A stretch of 6,840 bases of DNA from a bacterium (lineage in GTDB: Bacteria; Coprothermobacterota; Coprothermobacteria; Coprothermobacterales; JAADFF01), in the NCBI GenBank assembly GCA_027063755.1, contig JAMORD010000103.1, forward strand, positions 1 to 6,840, given 5' to 3'. The translations under genes and the position numbers were made by a program. Positions 1 through 6,840 of the stretch are shown here, piece after piece. Under the pieces are notes generated by a model. That model made no database searches. It saw only the letters and a program-made list of their open reading frames with translations, and was not told where the DNA came from. Numbering within the stretch: the stretch's first letter is position 1; each line of letters starts with the position of its first letter.

Positions 1-774
1 GGGGGCTTTCTTGTATATGCAGGTGGAGATGATGTTCTTGCTGTTTTTCCTGCGGATATAGCGGTAGATGCAGCCAACGACTTACAAAGGCTTTATAGAG
101 GAGAGTATAGTGGGGAGATAGGTATTCAGGTTGATGATAAAATTCTTGCATTTGAACTATTAGATAACCAGTATGGAGAAAAGAGTTCTTTTGTTGTCTA
201 TAAATCTATGGACGAAAGCATTATTATCGGAAATGTTCCTGGTAGGAGAATGACAATGTCTGGAGGAGTGTTGGTTACTCACTTTAAGCATCCTATGAGG
301 TTGTCTCTTGAGATGGTTTATAACCTGATGAAGGAAGCCAAGAAAAAAGGTAGAGATCGTGTAGCGGTAGCAGTGGTACAGAGAAGTGGATTGGAAATAA
401 GGACGTTTCTCAGGTGGAATGAGGTAGATAAAGCTAAGGAATGGGCGGAGAGGATAGAAAGGGGGATTGGTGGATTGAGTAATAGAAAGTTTTATATGAT
501 TATGCCATACAGAGATAGAGAAAATACATGGCGATGGAGAGATGCTGCTTTAGATGCCATTATGGATGCAGAGGTCGGAGATGTTGAGTCTGCAAAGATG
601 TTTATAAAAAACATTCTTCTTCATGGTGATAAGGATTGCGAGGAGGTTTCTAAATTGGTTGATTATTTGTTTGAAGGATTGAACGAAAAAAATCTCAGGA
701 AGGAACTTCCCAATAGGATAATGGGTGTCAGAGTCTTTATGGAAATTGGGGGTGATGATATTGTTGCTGGGTAG
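1..774 (+). CDS. cmr2: Cas10/Cmr2, type III-B large subunit (C-terminal part, 5' end outside window)
   Basis: This is the last 257 residues of the large subunit of the Cmr effector complex; the N-terminal part, including any HD nuclease domain, lies left of the window. The fragment opens in the second palm (GGDEF/cyclase-like) domain, where strand-turn-strand residues YAGGDDVLAVF carry the GGDD motif at fragment residues 8-11. In this family that motif binds the metals used to make cyclic oligoadenylate from ATP once target RNA is bound. The remainder (about residues 75-257) is the mostly helical C-terminal region, with a final palm strand pair near RDRVAVAVVQRSG. The gene ends at TAG 772-774 and overlaps cmr3 by 20 nt. 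Identity rests on the GGDD motif plus the following cmr3-4-5-6-1 genes. A second GGDD-like string at residues 250-253 is at the extreme C-terminus and is unlikely to be catalytic. Confidence 0.95.
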   Translation, partial: GGFLVYAGGDDVLAVFPADIAVDAANDLQRLYRGEYSGEIGIQVDDKILAFELLDNQYGEKSSFVVYKSMDESIIIGNVPGRRMTMSGGVLVTHFKHPMRLSLEMVYNLMKEAKKKGRDRVAVAVVQRSGLEIRTFLRWNEVDKAKEWAERIERGIGGLSNRKFYMIMPYRDRENTWRWRDAALDAIMDAEVGDVESAKMFIKNILLHGDKDCEEVSKLVDYLFEGLNEKNLRKELPNRIMGVRVFMEIGGDDIVAG

Positions 775-1837
775 AATAAAACCGCTAACCCCCCTGACTT
801 TTAGAAGTCCAAGGAAAATGGGAATAGGTGATGTGGTAAATACCTCGGGTATTATTCCTATTACAACTTTATGGGGTGTTGTTAGAACTGCAGTGGGTAA
901 TGCATTGGGGGTAGTATGGGAAGAATACATTTCCAACTATAAGAGTTCTTCTGTAGGACAAATTCTTGGAGATCCACGAGAGTATTTTTCGGACAAAATG
1001 GTTGTTTCATATCCCATGTGGTATAAGGATGGTGAGTTGTACATTAGAAATTTTCACACTATGATAGTAGCAAAGAGGAAGAAAGAGAACAGTGATGAGG
1101 AAGATGACGATTACAAAGTATTTGTTTTCAATCTTGAGAATGGAGTAGAGGAGGAGTTTGTAATAAACGGAAAAAAGAGACAGTTGAGAATTCCCGCACT
1201 TATAGATTTACCCCAACAGTATGAGGCTGTCGATGGTAGTGTCTGGATGCCGTTTTCAGAAGTTTTACAGATTATGAAAGATAGTGTTGGGGAATGGGTA
1301 GATGTGGATGTCTTAAAGCTGTCTCATTATGTAAAAAGTTATGTCCATACAGGAATAGGGATAGATAGGACTTCTCGGACTGTTGCAAAAACTTCAGATG
1401 GTTCAGGACTTGTTTATCGACTTCAATACTTGGAATTTGAAGAAATTGAGATGGCGTTTTGGTTAAAGATGAATGATGAAGAGAAGGAAAAGGAACTTGT
1501 GGGGTATCAGGAGGTTGTTCACATAGGGGGAAAGGGAGGACGGGCACTATTGACATTTGAGAAGTGGAATGAGAATTGGGATAGGTCTGGTAAGCATGTT
1601 GTACTTCTTTCACCTCTTGACCAAAAGACTACTATGGAGAGTCTGTTTGAGTTTGCCAGTGGGGCTACCATTCTTATGTGGAATAAAATTACAGGTTTCT
1701 ATAAGCATGAAAAAGACAAAAGAATTCGCCCGACAAAACTGGTACTTCCCCCTGGGGCTGTTTTTTGGTTTGACGAAAAAGGGTTAAATCGGACCAAGGA
1801 ATTTCTGAAAAATCACACTATATACATGACATATTGA
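755..1837 (+). CDS. cmr3: Cmr3, type III-B Cas5-like subunit
   Basis: This 360-residue RAMP protein is the Cas5-like subunit that, in characterised Cmr complexes, holds the 5' tag of the crRNA and contacts Cas10. Visible family features are the N-terminal strand and loop with PLTPLTFRSPRKMG (residues 10-23), where Cmr3 proteins have a PLDPLFFRDG-type motif; the helix beginning PITTLWGVVRTAVGNALG (35-52); the GIGIDRTSRTVAK segment (200-212); the glycine-rich HIGGKGGRALL (256-266); and the C-terminal PPGAVFWF strand (332-339). An acidic loop, ENSDEEDDD (111-119), is probably surface exposed. I chose ATG 755, preceded by GGGGGTG; a GTG at 725 would add ten residues and deepen the overlap with cmr2, and the family N-terminus favours the shorter form. 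It overlaps cmr2 by 20 nt and ends at TGA 1835-1837, 13 nt before cmr4. Confidence 0.93.
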   Translation: MILLLGRIKPLTPLTFRSPRKMGIGDVVNTSGIIPITTLWGVVRTAVGNALGVVWEEYISNYKSSSVGQILGDPREYFSDKMVVSYPMWYKDGELYIRNFHTMIVAKRKKENSDEEDDDYKVFVFNLENGVEEEFVINGKKRQLRIPALIDLPQQYEAVDGSVWMPFSEVLQIMKDSVGEWVDVDVLKLSHYVKSYVHTGIGIDRTSRTVAKTSDGSGLVYRLQYLEFEEIEMAFWLKMNDEEKEKELVGYQEVVHIGGKGGRALLTFEKWNENWDRSGKHVVLLSPLDQKTTMESLFEFASGATILMWNKITGFYKHEKDKRIRPTKLVLPPGAVFWFDEKGLNRTKEFLKNHTIYMTY

Positions 1838-1844
1838 GGAGGTG
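1836..1844 (+). promoter_or_regulatory. Shine-Dalgarno site for cmr4
   Basis: GAGGAGGTG overlaps the cmr3 stop codon and lies 6 nt before ATG 1851. It decides the cmr4 start: the in-frame GTG at 1842 is part of this site and so is unlikely to be the initiator. Confidence 0.85.
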
Positions 1845-1850
1845 TTCTAT

Positions 1851-2690
1851 ATGTGGGTTGGAAGTATTTATGCGCTTAGTAAGATACATGCAGGTGAAGG
1901 GGCAGATGTTGGATTTATTGATCTGCCCATTCAGAGGGAAAGACATACAGGATTTCCGGTTATAAGAGCAAGTGCGGTAAAAGGTGTTTTAAGGGATGAG
2001 TGTGAAAAAAATGAGAACTGCAAAGATAAAGTTAATAAGTTGTTTGGACCACCTCCAAGAGATGGTAAGCAACTGGAGGCTGGAGCTCTCATATTCTCAG
2101 ATGCCCGCATATTGGCATTTCCCGTTAGAGGGTATAAAGTGTATCCATTCTGGTGGGTTACTTGTCCGTATGTGCTGAATAGATATCTTAGGGATGTTGG
2201 AAAGTTTAATGAGAAGGTTGATGTTGGTGAAAGGTATGTTGGTTTAGAAAAGTACGATGAGGCCTATATAGAGGGTATTAAAGTGAGGGTTGAAAAGGTT
2301 GATGGAGAAGCGGCTGAAACACTAAAGAAAATCTTTGAACCTATTTTGGCTGATAAGATTATCACATGGGATGATTTTAAGAAGAGACTTATTGTAGTGC
2401 CCGACAACATATTTGCCCTTCTTGTGAGAAATGCCACAGAGGTCGTTGCGAGGATTGTTATTGATGATGATACCAAGACTACAAAAAACCTGTGGTATGA
2501 AGAGTTTTTGCCTATGGATACAATATTGTATTTTACCGTTTCCTATAGAAATGGCAACAACAAAGAGAAGTTTCCACTTGGCGATGAACTTGCCACATTT
2601 ATAGGAGGAGATATCACGGTAGGTAGTGGGGTTGTTTACATGAAGTTTACCTCTCTGTCTGGAGGTGAAAATAATGGTCAGAGAAGATAG
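1851..2690 (+). CDS. cmr4: Cmr4, type III-B Cas7-like backbone subunit and target-RNA nuclease
   Basis: Cmr4 polymerises along the crRNA and cuts target RNA at 6-nt intervals. The 279-residue protein has the family's signature in full: H13, then GFIDLPIQRERHTGFP (residues 21-36). D24 in this motif aligns with the catalytic aspartate D26 of Pyrococcus furiosus Cmr4, and H13 aligns with its H15. Next come the RAMP segment RASAVKGVLRDE (39-50), FGPP (65-68), SDARILAFPVRG (83-94), PDNIFALLVRNATEV (184-198), LWYEEFLPMDT (214-224) and the glycine-rich FIGGDITVGSGVV (250-262). Nothing is missing, so the RNase is predicted active. ATG 1851 is chosen from the Shine-Dalgarno site 6 nt upstream. The 3' end overlaps cmr5 by 17 nt, implying coupled translation. 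A short insertion with C51 and C57 follows the first RAMP motif. Confidence 0.96.
   Translation: MWVGSIYALSKIHAGEGADVGFIDLPIQRERHTGFPVIRASAVKGVLRDECEKNENCKDKVNKLFGPPPRDGKQLEAGALIFSDARILAFPVRGYKVYPFWWVTCPYVLNRYLRDVGKFNEKVDVGERYVGLEKYDEAYIEGIKVRVEKVDGEAAETLKKIFEPILADKIITWDDFKKRLIVVPDNIFALLVRNATEVVARIVIDDDTKTTKNLWYEEFLPMDTILYFTVSYRNGNNKEKFPLGDELATFIGGDITVGSGVVYMKFTSLSGGENNGQRR
2661..2665 (+). promoter_or_regulatory. Shine-Dalgarno site for cmr5, inside cmr4
   Basis: GGAGG lies 8 nt before ATG 2674, within the last codons of cmr4. It sets the cmr5 start; the in-frame GTG at 2665 overlaps the site itself and is therefore rejected. Confidence 0.8.
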
Positions 2691-3102
2691 GGTTGAGTAT
2701 ATAGATGCTTCTATTGCTAAGTTAGCTCTAAAGCATGCCAGAGAGGGAGTGAAGGTAAACAAGTATGCTGAAGTTGTAAAAGGTTTTCCGGCTATGGTTA
2801 TTACCGGCACCATATTGGGTGCCATAGCATTTGCAGAAGAAAAAAGCAAAGGGAAATCAGATACGGCACAGGCTTACGGCAAACTGATAGAACATATTCG
2901 TGAGCTCTGGCGTGAATTCTATGATGGGGAGAGTATAAAAGAAGATACTTTGCTTACAGACGTTTTGCTCACTTATCAGGAAAATGTAGATGGTTTGTTA
3001 AAGATATTTGTTCTACAGGAACTTACGCTTAAGTATCTTTCATATCTCAGAAGATATGCCACCGCTTTTGAGGAGGCGAAGGGGAATGGGCAGAGGTCAT
3101 AA
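2674..3102 (+). CDS. cmr5: Cmr5, type III-B small subunit (Cas11-like)
   Basis: Cmr5 is the small, all-helical subunit that forms the inner filament of the Cmr complex beside the Cmr4 backbone and helps hold the target RNA. The protein has 142 residues, within the usual range of the family, and reads as helices throughout with no transmembrane segment or enzyme motif. Recognisable parts are the N-terminal helix with a run of alanines and lysines (residues 8-24), and the helix KGFPAMVITGTILGAIAFAEEK (36-57), which matches the hydrophobic core helix of Cmr5 proteins. The C-terminal helices span roughly 90-136. The call depends partly on position between cmr4 and cmr6, since Cmr5 sequences diverge strongly. 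The tail NGQRS arises from the DNA that also encodes the Cmr6 start; the overlap with cmr6 is 17 nt. Confidence 0.9.
   Translation: MVREDRVEYIDASIAKLALKHAREGVKVNKYAEVVKGFPAMVITGTILGAIAFAEEKSKGKSDTAQAYGKLIEHIRELWREFYDGESIKEDTLLTDVLLTYQENVDGLLKIFVLQELTLKYLSYLRRYATAFEEAKGNGQRS
3071..3076 (+). promoter_or_regulatory. Shine-Dalgarno site for cmr6, inside cmr5
   Basis: AGGAGG ends 9 nt before ATG 3086 and supports that start over the in-frame TTG at 3008 and the later ATG at 3149, which has only a weak purine run upstream. Confidence 0.7.
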
Positions 3103-4000
3103 TAGGAGAAATAATGAAAGGAATAATAGACATAGTAGCGGGAAAAGGATGAAATGGCAAGGTGAACATAGTAGGAGTGCCCATGATGATAGTGTTAAAT
3201 ATAAGAACATCTCTGTATATTGGCATGTGGGGTGGAAATTAGAGAATACTTCTACTAATGGTGAGCAGTTGAAAAAATACATCATAAGGACAATGACAAA
3301 CTGGGATGGGAATGGTAGTTTTGAGGAATTTAAAAAGAGACGAGAGATTGTAAAGGCAATGGAAAATGTAGAAAAGAAAACAGTGAAGTTAACCTCTCGT
3401 CTTGCTGTTGGAATGGGATATTCCCATGCTATAGATATACCCGGAATCTCCCTTATGAGAAATTATGGTATTCCTTATATACCCGGAAGTGAGGTAAAGG
3501 GTATTTTGGCTGATGCATTTAGGTTGAAATACGGAGACAAAAGATGGGGCGATTACCTTCTGATATTTGGCGATGTGGGGAGGATGGAGGAAATAGATGA
3601 AAACTTTAGAATAAGGGGTACTGTAGTGTTTTTTGATGCTATAGTGCTTCCTATTGAGGAAAAAAATGAGAAGAAACAATTTTTTGATGCTGATGTTATG
3701 ACTCCCCACTATCGCAAGTATTACAGTGGGGAACATAGGATGCCTTTAGACGTTGAGAATCCCGTTCCTATCCCATTTATCACTGTTAGGGATGGAACGA
3801 GCATAGAGTTTCTGTGGATGGTTATAGCAGATCGGTTGAAAGAGAGAATTGCCATTATTGAAAAAGAAGGTCATGAAGTGGTATTGAAAAATCCTGAAAG
3901 TATAAATAAGGAAATAGAGGCTCTCATAGAATTTGTTTCTAAAGATCTTGGTTGGGGAGCTAAGAGAAGAGTGGGGTATGGAAGGGGTGAACCTGTATGA
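3086..4000 (+). CDS. cmr6: Cmr6, type III-B Cas7-like cap subunit
   Basis: Cmr6 is a RAMP protein that, with Cmr1, caps the crRNA 3' end of the complex. The 304-residue product shows the family core: SRLAVGMGYSHAIDIPG (residues 104-120), the RAMP motif GIPYIPGSEVKG (128-139), FGD (161-163), VFFDAIVLP (181-189), DVMTPHY (203-209) and the C-terminal glycine-rich loop GWGAKRRVGYGRG (289-301) that contacts RNA in RAMP folds. The first ~40 residues are unlike the rest: rich in Arg, Asn, His and Ser (MGRGHNRRNNERNNRHSSGK), probably disordered. The start at ATG 3086 rests on the AGGAGG 9 nt upstream; an alternative ATG at 3149 (MKWQGEH) would drop 21 of these residues. It overlaps cmr5 by 17 nt and its TGA overlaps the cmr1 ATG. 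Confidence 0.93.
   Translation: MGRGHNRRNNERNNRHSSGKRMKWQGEHSRSAHDDSVKYKNISVYWHVGWKLENTSTNGEQLKKYIIRTMTNWDGNGSFEEFKKRREIVKAMENVEKKTVKLTSRLAVGMGYSHAIDIPGISLMRNYGIPYIPGSEVKGILADAFRLKYGDKRWGDYLLIFGDVGRMEEIDENFRIRGTVVFFDAIVLPIEEKNEKKQFFDADVMTPHYRKYYSGEHRMPLDVENPVPIPFITVRDGTSIEFLWMVIADRLKERIAIIEKEGHEVVLKNPESINKEIEALIEFVSKDLGWGAKRRVGYGRGEPV
3983..3990 (+). promoter_or_regulatory. Shine-Dalgarno site for cmr1, inside cmr6
   Basis: AGGGGTGA, one mismatch from the ideal AGGAGGTGA, lies 6 nt before ATG 3997 and supports the ATGA stop-start junction of cmr6 and cmr1. Confidence 0.7.
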
Positions 4001-5271
4001 AAAAGGTTGAATTTAAAATGAAAGTTGTCACCCCCCTGATAATGTCTGGAGCTAATCAAAATAGGGCTGAAATAAGGGCATCTTCTATAAAAGGATTGAT
4101 TAGATGGTGGTTTAGAGAGTTGTTCAAGGAGAAAAAGGGGGAGGGAATTGACTATTCTAAGGTGCGGGAAAGAGAAAAGGAGATATTTGGATCCGCGTTA
4201 GAAGAAAAGGGGCAAGCAGGAAAAGTTTGGGTGTCGGTGAAAAGCGAAGGGGTGAGAATTAAAAAATTTGGAAAAGATAAGAGAATAGATACGAGAAATG
4301 AGAAAGGGTTAGCGTATTTAACACTTGGAGGAAAGGCTATAGGTGGTAGAGGGTATATAGATTCAGATTCTCGTTTTACTGTTACCTTGATGTTTGATAG
4401 TTCTCTAAATGATACAGGGGTAGAAGATGTTTTAAGAGCATTTTGGGCATCTGTCTATTTGGGTAATTGGGGGTTTCGTAGTAGAAGGGGATTTGGCAGT
4501 GTAGAGGTTGAGAAAGTCAGAGTAAGTGGTATAGAAGGAGAGTTAGCAGAAACACTGGAGAAGGTTTTTGTTCCTTTCTCTGAGAGTCTTTTTAGAGAGG
4601 CAAAAGGATGGATGAAGGGAAGAAAAGAAAGAAATTGTTGGATATTTAGAGAATTTGTAAAGGTAAGATGGAGAAACCTTAGGAGGGATAGCAAGAAGAC
4701 AACAACTAATTCTTTAGCAGGCTTAAAAAAATTGATGGGTAGTTACTATGATATTTGGGAAGTACTAGATGAAGTAGGATTGGCGTGGCAGGAAGCAAGA
4801 AAAAGTGTTCAGGAAAACAAGAGAGGAACGGATTTTAAACTAATGCAGAAGGGTACAAGAAGGTTATATCTTCCTTCTGTAGGTATGCCTGTGGGGTATT
4901 TTGCTATGAAACTTAGTCGACAGTTAGAAAGAAAATACAAGGAATGTGTGGAAGAATGTATGAAAAAGGGTGAAAGAAAATGTGAAAATAAGTGTAGAAG
5001 TGGAAGTGTTAGCTGGAATGATGGAAATTATGGCAAGGACTACGGAAGACTGGCTTCAAGGATTATCCTGAAAGTATGGAATGGCGGAGTAGGTATTGTG
5101 TTTGTAGATAAACCATGGAGAGCTGTTAAAGAGAGAAATGGCAAGGTAGAAGAGCTTAAAGTAGTGATGCGAGGGGGACTTGCTAGAGTTGTTGGAGTGC
5201 AGGGTAACGAATTTGATGTTGAAGATATAGCTGAGGATGTATTTGATAAATTTCAATTTCCCCAGATATGA
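3997..5271 (+). CDS. cmr1: Cmr1, type III-B Cas7-like cap subunit
   Basis: Cmr1 sits with Cmr6 at the crRNA 3' end of the complex and helps admit target RNA. The 424-residue protein begins with the family signature TPLIMSGANQNRAEIRASSI (residues 12-31) running into KGLIRWWFREL (32-42), the Cmr1 form of the RAMP motif. The first glycine-rich loop is GNWGFRSRRGFGSVEVE (156-172). The second half has RRLYLPSVGMPVGYF and, near residues 353-373, the GRLASRIILKVWNGG segment, typical of the Cmr1 C-terminal domain. Between them is a Lys/Glu-rich stretch with four cysteines, C317-x3-C321-x7-C329-x3-C333, which I do not recall as a general Cmr1 feature. It starts four nt inside cmr6 (ATGA) and is the last gene of the tightly coupled block. 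Its presence defines the system as III-B. Confidence 0.93.
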   Translation: MKKVEFKMKVVTPLIMSGANQNRAEIRASSIKGLIRWWFRELFKEKKGEGIDYSKVREREKEIFGSALEEKGQAGKVWVSVKSEGVRIKKFGKDKRIDTRNEKGLAYLTLGGKAIGGRGYIDSDSRFTVTLMFDSSLNDTGVEDVLRAFWASVYLGNWGFRSRRGFGSVEVEKVRVSGIEGELAETLEKVFVPFSESLFREAKGWMKGRKERNCWIFREFVKVRWRNLRRDSKKTTTNSLAGLKKLMGSYYDIWEVLDEVGLAWQEARKSVQENKRGTDFKLMQKGTRRLYLPSVGMPVGYFAMKLSRQLERKYKECVEECMKKGERKCENKCRSGSVSWNDGNYGKDYGRLASRIILKVWNGGVGIVFVDKPWRAVKERNGKVEELKVVMRGGLARVVGVQGNEFDVEDIAEDVFDKFQFPQI

Positions 5272-5296: not shown

Positions 5297-5316
5297 GGGG
5301 CACCCGAAGGTGCCCC
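5297..5316 (+). terminator. Perfect 8-bp hairpin after cmr1: weak terminator or attenuator
   Basis: GGGGCACC and GGTGCCCC form a perfect stem around a CGAA loop, 25 nt after the cmr1 stop. The stem is G+C-rich in A+T-rich surroundings, as in intrinsic terminators, but the following bases (ATATTTGGTT) are not a solid U-tract, so read-through into the next gene is likely. It could also act as an RNA-stability or processing element between the cmr block and the effector gene. The hairpin is seen directly; its function is inferred. Confidence 0.55.
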
Positions 5317-5338: not shown

Positions 5339-5349
5339 AAGGAGGTGAT
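5339..5349 (+). promoter_or_regulatory. Exceptionally strong Shine-Dalgarno site for the HD effector gene
   Basis: AAGGAGGTGAT is fully complementary to the conserved bacterial 16S rRNA 3' tail over 11 nt, with its GGAGG core 7 nt from ATG 5353. It fixes the start of the downstream gene and suggests efficient translation independent of cmr1. Confidence 0.85.
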
Positions 5350-5352
5350 ATC

Positions 5353-6840
5353 ATGGGGTCAGCCTATGTAATTGTGGGGAATTCTCTTGAGAGAAATGTG
5401 AATTTTGTATTGGGCTATCAGAAAAGTAAATCTGATACACATCCAGGTTTTCTAATTACCAATTTTTTTACGCAGGAGCTGAAGGTTCCTGAGAAGGATT
5501 TCTTTGAAGTTGTTGGTGATATAAGAAAGTATCTTGACGGGAAAGTTTATTTAGAAGATGTTGTAGAAAAGATTGAAAATGTTTTTGGAGGAAATAGTGC
5601 TCAGTTTTATATCCGAATGTCGGCAGAACTGACACAGCTTTGGAAGTATATGGAAGGTGATATGGTAAATAGGTTGTATGCCACAGTTTTATATTGGAAT
5701 GACACAAAGAAAGATGTGAGAAGGATTCAAAATAATATCAGGAAGCTAATTTTACATGTAGTAAGGCAGTATTTCCCCAATGTTATTCCCGAAGCGGGGA
5801 GAGATATTTATTTTGACAGCAAGAGCGGTTGGGGTGTTCTAAAGAAGGGACTTATGGAGATTGTAAAAGACTTTGTTTGGTTTTATAAGGCTCACAAAGA
5901 GCATTTGCCTGTGTATGTGCCCACGACAGCCCAGAAGGTTGTATGGGATATGATCCATACTCTTACATATTTATACCCACATGTTATCAATGTCTATGCT
6001 GTAGAGGGACAAGAGGAGGTTTATAGGCTTCCCCACCTCCCCATGAACATAGACATTGTAGAACTGCAAAGCAAGATTTCAGCCATTCGCTCTGGTATCA
6101 AAGGGTTTCTTGAGGATGAGTGGGAGATTCTTGAACCTATATGGGATGATATTATCAGTGTTATCACCGGTTCCTACCGCTATATGCCATCTATGGTTTA
6201 TGATATGAACCTTCCTAAACCTTATATCGCCGCACTTGAAAATGCCATTCCTGTGCTGTCAAACTTATGGTCTGCCGACCGCATACCAGAAACTGTGGAA
6301 CATTCAGCAGGCCATTCTCGCCGTATAGTAGAGCGTTTTTCATATCTTATGAAGAGTAGTGATTTTATAAGTGATTGGGTACCACAAGATATGAAAGACG
6401 AATTTGTATTTATCATTGTCCTGGCGGCATACCTTCATGATATTGGACATACCATCGCTGAATTTATGGGTAAACCTGTTTTTATGTTTCCTGAAATTGT
6501 TAGGGCATATCATCATGTGTTTAGTGTGTATATGTTGGAGCATTATGCAGAAGATATGGGAGTTAAAAAGAATGAACATATAGATGAAGAGACATGGAAG
6601 AGACTTATAGATAGTGTGTATCTTGTATCCTTATATCACAGAAAGAATATGCATCTTGCCAATGCAAAAGACCATGGGGACTCATATTTTGCCGGTCTGT
6701 TTGGGCAGGGAATGTATGAGAAGTATATGCCCCTTATGATAGAGCATGAGAGGTTTAAAAGATTGCCCGAAAATTGGCAGGAGATGGTGCTTAGGGCTTC
6801 TATACTGTTTAAGATGCTTGATGAGATAGATGTGCAGATA
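5353..6840 (+). CDS. Putative CRISPR ancillary effector: CARF-like N-terminus plus HD phosphohydrolase domain (3' end outside window)
   Basis: The frame is open for 496 codons and runs off the window. The C-terminal part is an HD-superfamily domain: HSRRIVERF (H321), LAAYLHDIGH (H362-D363), YHHVFSVYMLEHY (H387, H388), SLYHRKN (H429) and LFKMLDEID (D490 or D493) match the H...HD...H...H...D metal-ligand pattern of metal-dependent phosphohydrolases. The first ~300 residues are not recognised with confidence. They contain a short hydrophobic strand at the start (AYVIVGN, 4-10), a strand ATVLYW (110-115), and a strand-helix-strand unit PVYVPTTAQKVVWDMI...VINVYAVEG (186-219) ending in YRLPHLP. This resembles the end of a CARF sensor domain, with TTAQK where CARF proteins often have TGGTK. 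No signal peptide or membrane segment is evident. Position directly behind a cyclase-competent Cmr operon suggests a cyclic-oligoadenylate-responsive nuclease, nucleotidase or messenger-degrading enzyme. HD is well supported; CARF and the role are inference. Confidence 0.8.
   Translation, partial: MGSAYVIVGNSLERNVNFVLGYQKSKSDTHPGFLITNFFTQELKVPEKDFFEVVGDIRKYLDGKVYLEDVVEKIENVFGGNSAQFYIRMSAELTQLWKYMEGDMVNRLYATVLYWNDTKKDVRRIQNNIRKLILHVVRQYFPNVIPEAGRDIYFDSKSGWGVLKKGLMEIVKDFVWFYKAHKEHLPVYVPTTAQKVVWDMIHTLTYLYPHVINVYAVEGQEEVYRLPHLPMNIDIVELQSKISAIRSGIKGFLEDEWEILEPIWDDIISVITGSYRYMPSMVYDMNLPKPYIAALENAIPVLSNLWSADRIPETVEHSAGHSRRIVERFSYLMKSSDFISDWVPQDMKDEFVFIIVLAAYLHDIGHTIAEFMGKPVFMFPEIVRAYHHVFSVYMLEHYAEDMGVKKNEHIDEETWKRLIDSVYLVSLYHRKNMHLANAKDHGDSYFAGLFGQGMYEKYMPLMIEHERFKRLPENWQEMVLRASILFKMLDEIDVQI

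Follow-up and report, generated by a model that had tools for sequence, protein, structure and literature searches.

CARF-HD proteins and the gene downstream of cmr1

In PADLOC-DB 2.0, proteins that join a CARF sensor to an HD domain are catalogued as two families, CARF7--CARF_HD (PDLC01933), which presumably goes back to the way Makarova et al. 2020 classified CARF proteins, and CARF7--CARF_CYTH_HD (PDLC01929). The combination, whose novelty was implied by the first-pass annotation of the DNA described here, is thus already on record, there and in reviews: CARF fused to an HD nuclease is listed in a review of 2021 (PMC7854544), and HD-family DNases are placed among the effectors activated by cyclic oligoadenylate (cOA) in the CRISPR classification of 2025 (PMC12669027). 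Additionally, CARF-linked RNA-polymerase systems and 'pppGpp hydrolase + RelA' systems were reported by Altae-Tran 2023, where a figure legend also names domains of the CYTH and HD types (PMC10910872). In the literature searched, which covered few subscription papers, we found no experimental study of any CARF-HD protein.

The window, that is, the whole stretch of DNA analysed, is a complete contig of 6840 bp belonging to a fragmented MAG (1.5 Mb, 251 contigs, about 88% complete). The genes cmr3, cmr4, cmr5, cmr6 and cmr1 are complete on this contig and cas10/cmr2 is present as its 3' part (Table 1), while no CRISPR array was found in the 6840-bp window. The operon had been called signalling-competent in the first-pass annotation; the intact GGDD motif of Cas10, the sole basis of this description, is confirmed, but the N-terminal half of Cas10 lies off the contig. 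As the palm GGDD motif is kept, synthesis of cyclic oligoadenylate by this Cas10 is plausible. The CARF-HD gene comes after cmr1 in the same orientation, with 81 bp between the two. Its ORF (5353-6840, + strand, 496 aa) starts with ATG and stays open to the final base of the contig, so that the assembly lacks its 3' end, and no second contig with a matching 3' end was found; same-clade relatives have 594-635 aa. The intergenic hairpin upstream of the gene presents a perfect 8-bp stem, with a regional folding z-score of only -1.55, and could serve as an attenuator or weak terminator.

Table 1 Features of the 6840-bp window, with the evidence on which each is based
Feature	Position	Strand	Evidence and remarks
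cas10/cmr2, C-terminal part with palm GGDD	1..774	+	family models and sequence
cmr3	725..1837	+	family models
cmr4	1842..2690	+	family models
cmr5	2665..3102	+	family models
cmr6	3092..4000	+	family models; start codon not fixed
cmr1	3997..5271	+	family models
GC-rich hairpin, cmr1/CARF-HD intergenic	5297..5316	+	terminator-like, poor T-run
Shine-Dalgarno AGGAGG	5340..5345	+	spacer of 7 nt to the start codon (5353); from sequence
CARF-HD ancillary effector gene (candidate)	5353..6840	+	496 aa, 3' end lost at contig end
CARF domain, CARF7/APE2256 type	5353..6102	+	residues 1-~250; profile and fold matches
CARF motif 1 VGNSL	5374..5388	+	residues 8-12; S11 aligned with the serine of TVGTSL (S12 in Sis0811)
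CARF motif 2 TTAQK	5923..5937	+	residues 191-195, TGGxK position; K195 on K169 of Sis0811
HD domain, Pfam HD-CE type	6250..6840	+	residues ~300-496; profile match and fold
HxxxH (H317, H321)	6301..6315	+	sequence and family alignment
HDxGH (H362, D363, H366)	6436..6450	+	sequence and family alignment
H387 (RxxH motif)	6511..6513	+	sequence and family alignment
H429 (YHR motif)	6637..6639	+	sequence and family alignment
DxxD (D490, D493)	6820..6831	+	sequence and family alignment

The window protein matches CARF7--CARF_HD at 7.3e-21 (72 bits) and shares with this family the N-terminal CARF7-type sensor, the HD-CE-type HD domain that follows it and the linkage to type III loci. It differs in its score, 72 bits only as compared to up to 597 bits for Synergistota members, in presenting TTAQK for TGGxK, in having L and A at the conserved W302 and G308, and in its missing C-terminus. 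In the same way, CARF7--CARF_CYTH_HD (4.7e-18) matches residues 119-495 of the window protein, and the CYTH-like part is either beyond the contig end or absent.

The sensor and the HD domain

A diverged CARF domain had been guessed in the first 300 residues, and profile matches, predicted fold and alignment now agree on it. In the PADLOC search, the window protein alone was also matched by Csm6 (1.5e-05) and CARF7--CARF_RelE (1.2e-04), an N-terminal profile made from the relatives only matched its residues 59-253 at 35.5 bits, and Pfam Cas_APE2256 scored 0.017, below its cut-off. The AlphaFold2 model, for which relatives were included in the alignment, has a mean pLDDT of 66 and a pTM of 0.72, mostly moderate confidence. 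It predicts a Rossmann-like CARF fold over residues 1-~250, with a first strand at residues 2-8 and, at the end of the domain, a strand (185-189), a helix (195-207) and a further strand (212-216). The top PDB fold match of this domain is the ring nuclease Sis0811 (cA4), with Z 13.8 over 209 residues and an rmsd of 4.1 A, and SSO1393 (Z 13.2) and Cami1 (Z 12.7) are matched as well; the CARF domain of the full-length close relative L014 reaches Z 19.9 against Sis0811.

In the alignment, S11 and K195 of the window protein fall on S12 and K169 of Sis0811, the residues mutated in Sis0811 structures. Crn1-type ring nucleases such as Sis0811 and SSO1393 are stand-alone CARF proteins without HD, whereas the CARF of the window protein is fused to an HD domain. 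Cami1 (CARF-RelE) belongs to the same CARF7 clade and is matched by the family profile at 7.7e-23, but its effector is a RelE ribonuclease.

The TTAQK segment, read in the first-pass annotation as a replacement of TGGTK, indeed aligns with the TGGxK loop of the relatives; T191 and K195 are kept and both glycines of the ligand loop are gone. Elsewhere in the domain, the first strand with VGNSL and E92 are also kept, and the family alignment shows G9 in 43/43, S11 in 40/43 and K195 in 43/45 sequences. Binding of cOA could be altered or lost in the window protein through TTAQK. As the loop varies across the clade, being TAGLK in Sis0811 and APGxK or TASYK in Thermotogota, the loss of the glycines alone does not imply that binding is lost. 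The serine and lysine of Crn1-type ring nucleases being retained, the protein may switch itself off by cutting its own ligand.

Pfam HD-CE (PF24391) matches the window protein above the cut-off, at 1.1e-06, and all 42 family HD domains scanned. The HD ligands proposed earlier (H321, H362-D363, H387/H388, H429 and D490/D493) were all found at their positions. In the alignment of 47 relatives and the window protein, H321, H362, D363, H387 and H429 do not vary at all (48/48 sequences), nor does D490 (46/46 aligned sequences); the exception is H388, a histidine in 24/47 relatives. Two further histidines that had not been named, H317 and H366, are each conserved in 46/47 relatives (47/48 including the window protein). 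Such constancy across 47 relatives, which come from several phyla, shows that these residues are not there by chance.

The HD fold is likewise present in the prediction, the HD part of the model matching exopolyphosphatase (PPX/GppA domain III, Z 13.0) and the cyclic-nucleotide phosphodiesterase PDE2 (Z 12.1) almost equally well, with values that, between mostly helical domains, reflect a shared arrangement and not function. The order of HDxxH is common to the window protein and cyclic-nucleotide PDEs, and in the profile alignment HDxxH and H387 lie on the PDE HDxxH and the following HH, with weak E-values of 0.1-0.3. Unlike PPX/GppA, the window protein is devoid of an ASKHA phosphatase domain, and identity to PPX/GppA and PDE is 10-17%. 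No match was obtained in the PDB with phmmer and the window protein; with the HD profile, the best PDB sequence match, a weak one (E 0.012), was the 'HD domain protein' 2o6i, which we take to be a dNTPase of Enterococcus faecalis, and exopolyphosphatase, Ppx-GppA_III and Cas3'' gave further weak matches. Two other assignments were not supported: a Cas3''/Cas3 HD nuclease of type I (TIGR01596, 0.031, 14.3 bits for a cut-off of 43.45, in a locus of type III-B) and a HEPN-type effector, the effector part of the protein matching HD families only.

Phosphodiesterases and Cas3-type nucleases bind two metals through an H-HD-H-H-D set that includes extra histidines, while dNTPases and SpoT-type hydrolases use an H-HD-D site. 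Because H387 and H429 are additional and invariant, two metals are favoured over the one-metal H-HD-D site of SAMHD1/EF1143-type dNTPases. With its HxxxH, HDxxH, H, H and DxxD motifs, the HD site is thus closer to that of a two-metal phosphodiesterase than to that of an H-HD-D dNTPase.

Relatives and their type III loci

Scans of reference genome contigs and of viral contigs with the window protein as single query gave no relatives, because this protein is diverged. With an alignment of three relatives as query, relatives were found in genome contigs, and there was no match in viral contigs. Profile searches yielded 11 reference-genome loci, of which 10 were accepted as CARF-HD (L017, from Acidimicrobiia, was left out for its weak, short match, E 1e-5), and were then carried to Thermotogota, Synergistota and Desulfobacterota genomes. 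Of the genomes searched, 18 of 103 from Thermotogota and about 21 of 185 from Synergistota gave matches covering the HD domain. The HD tree places the window protein in a clade of compact Thermotogota proteins (5 rows, support 100/98), on a long branch of 1.64. The window thus adds a genuine, if diverged, protein to the known CARF-HD family.

Linkage was counted from Pfam RAMP and Cas10 palm matches in 38 genomes, with 40 CARF-HD loci from three phyla. Among the matches listed, at least 18 of the 40 loci have a gene for a RAMP or Cas10 within 5 kb, at least 26 within 13 kb and at least 30 within 30 kb, figures that are lower bounds on proximity and come from related, hence not independent, loci; the other 10 have no type III gene on their contig among the matches listed. 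On chromosome-size contigs, a type III gene is found within 27 kb of every CARF-HD locus (13/13), and the four closest relatives are all within about 2 kb of cas10. Homologues are therefore mostly at type III loci, as the idea of a sensor-effector put forward in the first-pass annotation would have it. Cas7/Csm3-like RAMPs are immediately upstream of CARF-HD in L007 (Nitrospinae) and L009 (Desulfobacterales), a RAMP is near it in L008 (Ca. Lithacetigena), Cas10 and Cas7 are immediately downstream in L014 (Thermotogaceae), Cas6 and RT-Cas1 are near in L011 (Caldiserica), and CARF-RelE and Cmr1 in L012 (Synergistales), with an identical gene order in L013. L010 and L015 showed no cas gene on contigs of only about 5 kb each.

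Several of these neighbourhoods contain other genes. In Synergistales (L012:11772-16385, L012:17053-18651, L013:2665-7278), CARF-HD is followed by a 1537-aa fused Rpb2/Rpb1 RNA polymerase protein, and in L012 a sigma-54-type AAA protein and the CARF-RelE gene come next, before cmr1; the arrangement is reminiscent of what Altae-Tran 2023 describe as 'RNAPol + CARF' (PMC10910872). The Caldiserica locus L011 has two CARF-HD genes (6332-8488 and 12368-14458) with a double-AAA Clp-like ATPase in the opposite orientation between them, Cas6 and RT-Cas1 being downstream, and the CARF-HD of L010 is adjoined by a similar ATPase. In the Nitrospinae locus, two small ORFs that look nucleotidyltransferase-like by eye (L007:3727-4996) are immediately downstream of CARF-HD and are possibly a toxin-antitoxin type pair.

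The family itself is not uniform. Much longer Thermotogota members, of 961-1076 aa, occur among L038, L041, L042, L043, L050, L051 and L052, and the CARF loop reads APGHK, AGGLK or ASGPR in some of these loci, which suggests changes of ligand or function inside the CARF-HD family. The Desulfobacterales CARF-HD frame (L009:2290-4044) is broken by a single TAG codon downstream of YHR, which may reflect decay of this copy or a fault in the assembly.

The same MAG presents a second type III-B (Cmr) locus on contig C125 (1-5854, L023), where a 5'-truncated HD ORF (2-1234) overlaps the start of a complete cmr2/cas10 with GGDD, followed by cmr3. This HD fragment shares the RxxH, YHR and DxxD signature with the window CARF-HD and is diverged in sequence; it scores 15.5-18.7 bits with the family profile (E 0.017 against the genome), and alone it matched no PADLOC or Pfam family. 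It is a putative CARF-HD fragment. It was rejected as the missing 3' part of the window gene, since it overlaps residues 363-496 with a differing sequence and so belongs to a separate gene. A 342-aa ORF of C125 contains RNTFVH, a possible Rx4H motif of the HEPN type.

Proposed activity of the CARF-HD protein

From the computed domains, full ligand set, fold and type III linkage, we consider it likely that the window protein is a CARF-HD ancillary effector of the type III-B (Cmr) CRISPR system and that it works as follows. The Cmr complex would detect foreign RNA, upon which the Cas10 palm would synthesise cyclic oligoadenylate, probably cA4 if the nearest CARF relatives are a guide. By analogy with characterised CARF effectors, a CARF dimer would bind this messenger and, in the ligand-bound form, would activate the C-terminal HD domain, a predicted hydrolase of the two-metal phosphodiesterase type. 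The likeliest target would be nucleic acid, cut non-specifically so that the infection is stopped; nucleic acid as the HD substrate is a tentative choice, somewhat short of an even call. Because of the two-metal ligand pattern and the PDE/PPX-type matches, we favour an effector that cuts phosphodiester bonds, with nucleic acid before small nucleotides and these before the messenger.

A different substrate for a cOA-gated HD domain is unlikely but deserves weight, namely small nucleotides, the enzyme either lowering (d)NTP levels or breaking down (p)ppGpp or similar molecules. The HD and C-terminal part of L014 (226-599) aligns with the C-terminal half of PPX/GppA (313-503) with Z 12.8, three family members match Pfam Ppx-GppA_III (best 2.6e-05), and the presumed dNTPase 2o6i heads the PDB sequence matches; on the other hand, the H-HD-H-H-D set departs from the site of dNTPases and SpoT-type hydrolases, the known active site of PPX/GppA is located outside its HD domain, and the window has no RelA gene. 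Precedents are provided by the nucleotide-acting CARF effectors Cad1 and Chp (PMC11645235, PMC12715507) and by the 'pppGpp hydrolase + RelA' CARF-linked systems (PMC10910872). The fuller version, in which CARF-HD is a messenger-gated small-nucleotide hydrolase whose HD domain comes from a stock common with PPX/GppA and some members, such as the window protein with TTAQK, may answer a messenger other than cA4, appears rather unlikely. If small nucleotides were the substrate, type III CRISPR would be in direct control of alarmone or nucleotide pools.

It is improbable that the HD domain hydrolyses cyclic oligoadenylate itself, the protein being then an off-switch. The fold and motif order shared with cyclic-nucleotide PDEs, and a CARF domain nearest to ring nucleases with S11 and K195 kept, would suit such an enzyme; a second cOA hydrolase would however be redundant if the CARF is already a ring nuclease, the CARF-fused enzymes so far characterised are effectors, and the loci with one CARF-RelE and one CARF-HD are consistent with either role. 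Quite improbable, finally, is a decayed or re-purposed copy whose diverged CARF no longer senses cOA, a relic or a sensor of another ligand, as TTAQK, the long branch and the incomplete gene might suggest, given 496 open codons behind a strong ribosome site, the retention of all HD ligands and of G9, S11, E92 and K195 in the CARF, and the loop variation in other family members.

The reviews count the CARF-fused HD domain as a DNase, a label behind which we found no experiment. The analysis shows the family as a whole to be sizeable and tightly linked to type III loci, and its unvarying series of ligands points to a two-metal phosphodiesterase and not to an H-HD-D dNTPase. This poses a concrete, testable biochemical question, for which the compact Thermotogota proteins (594-635 aa) adjoining cas10 are convenient full-length stand-ins for the truncated gene.
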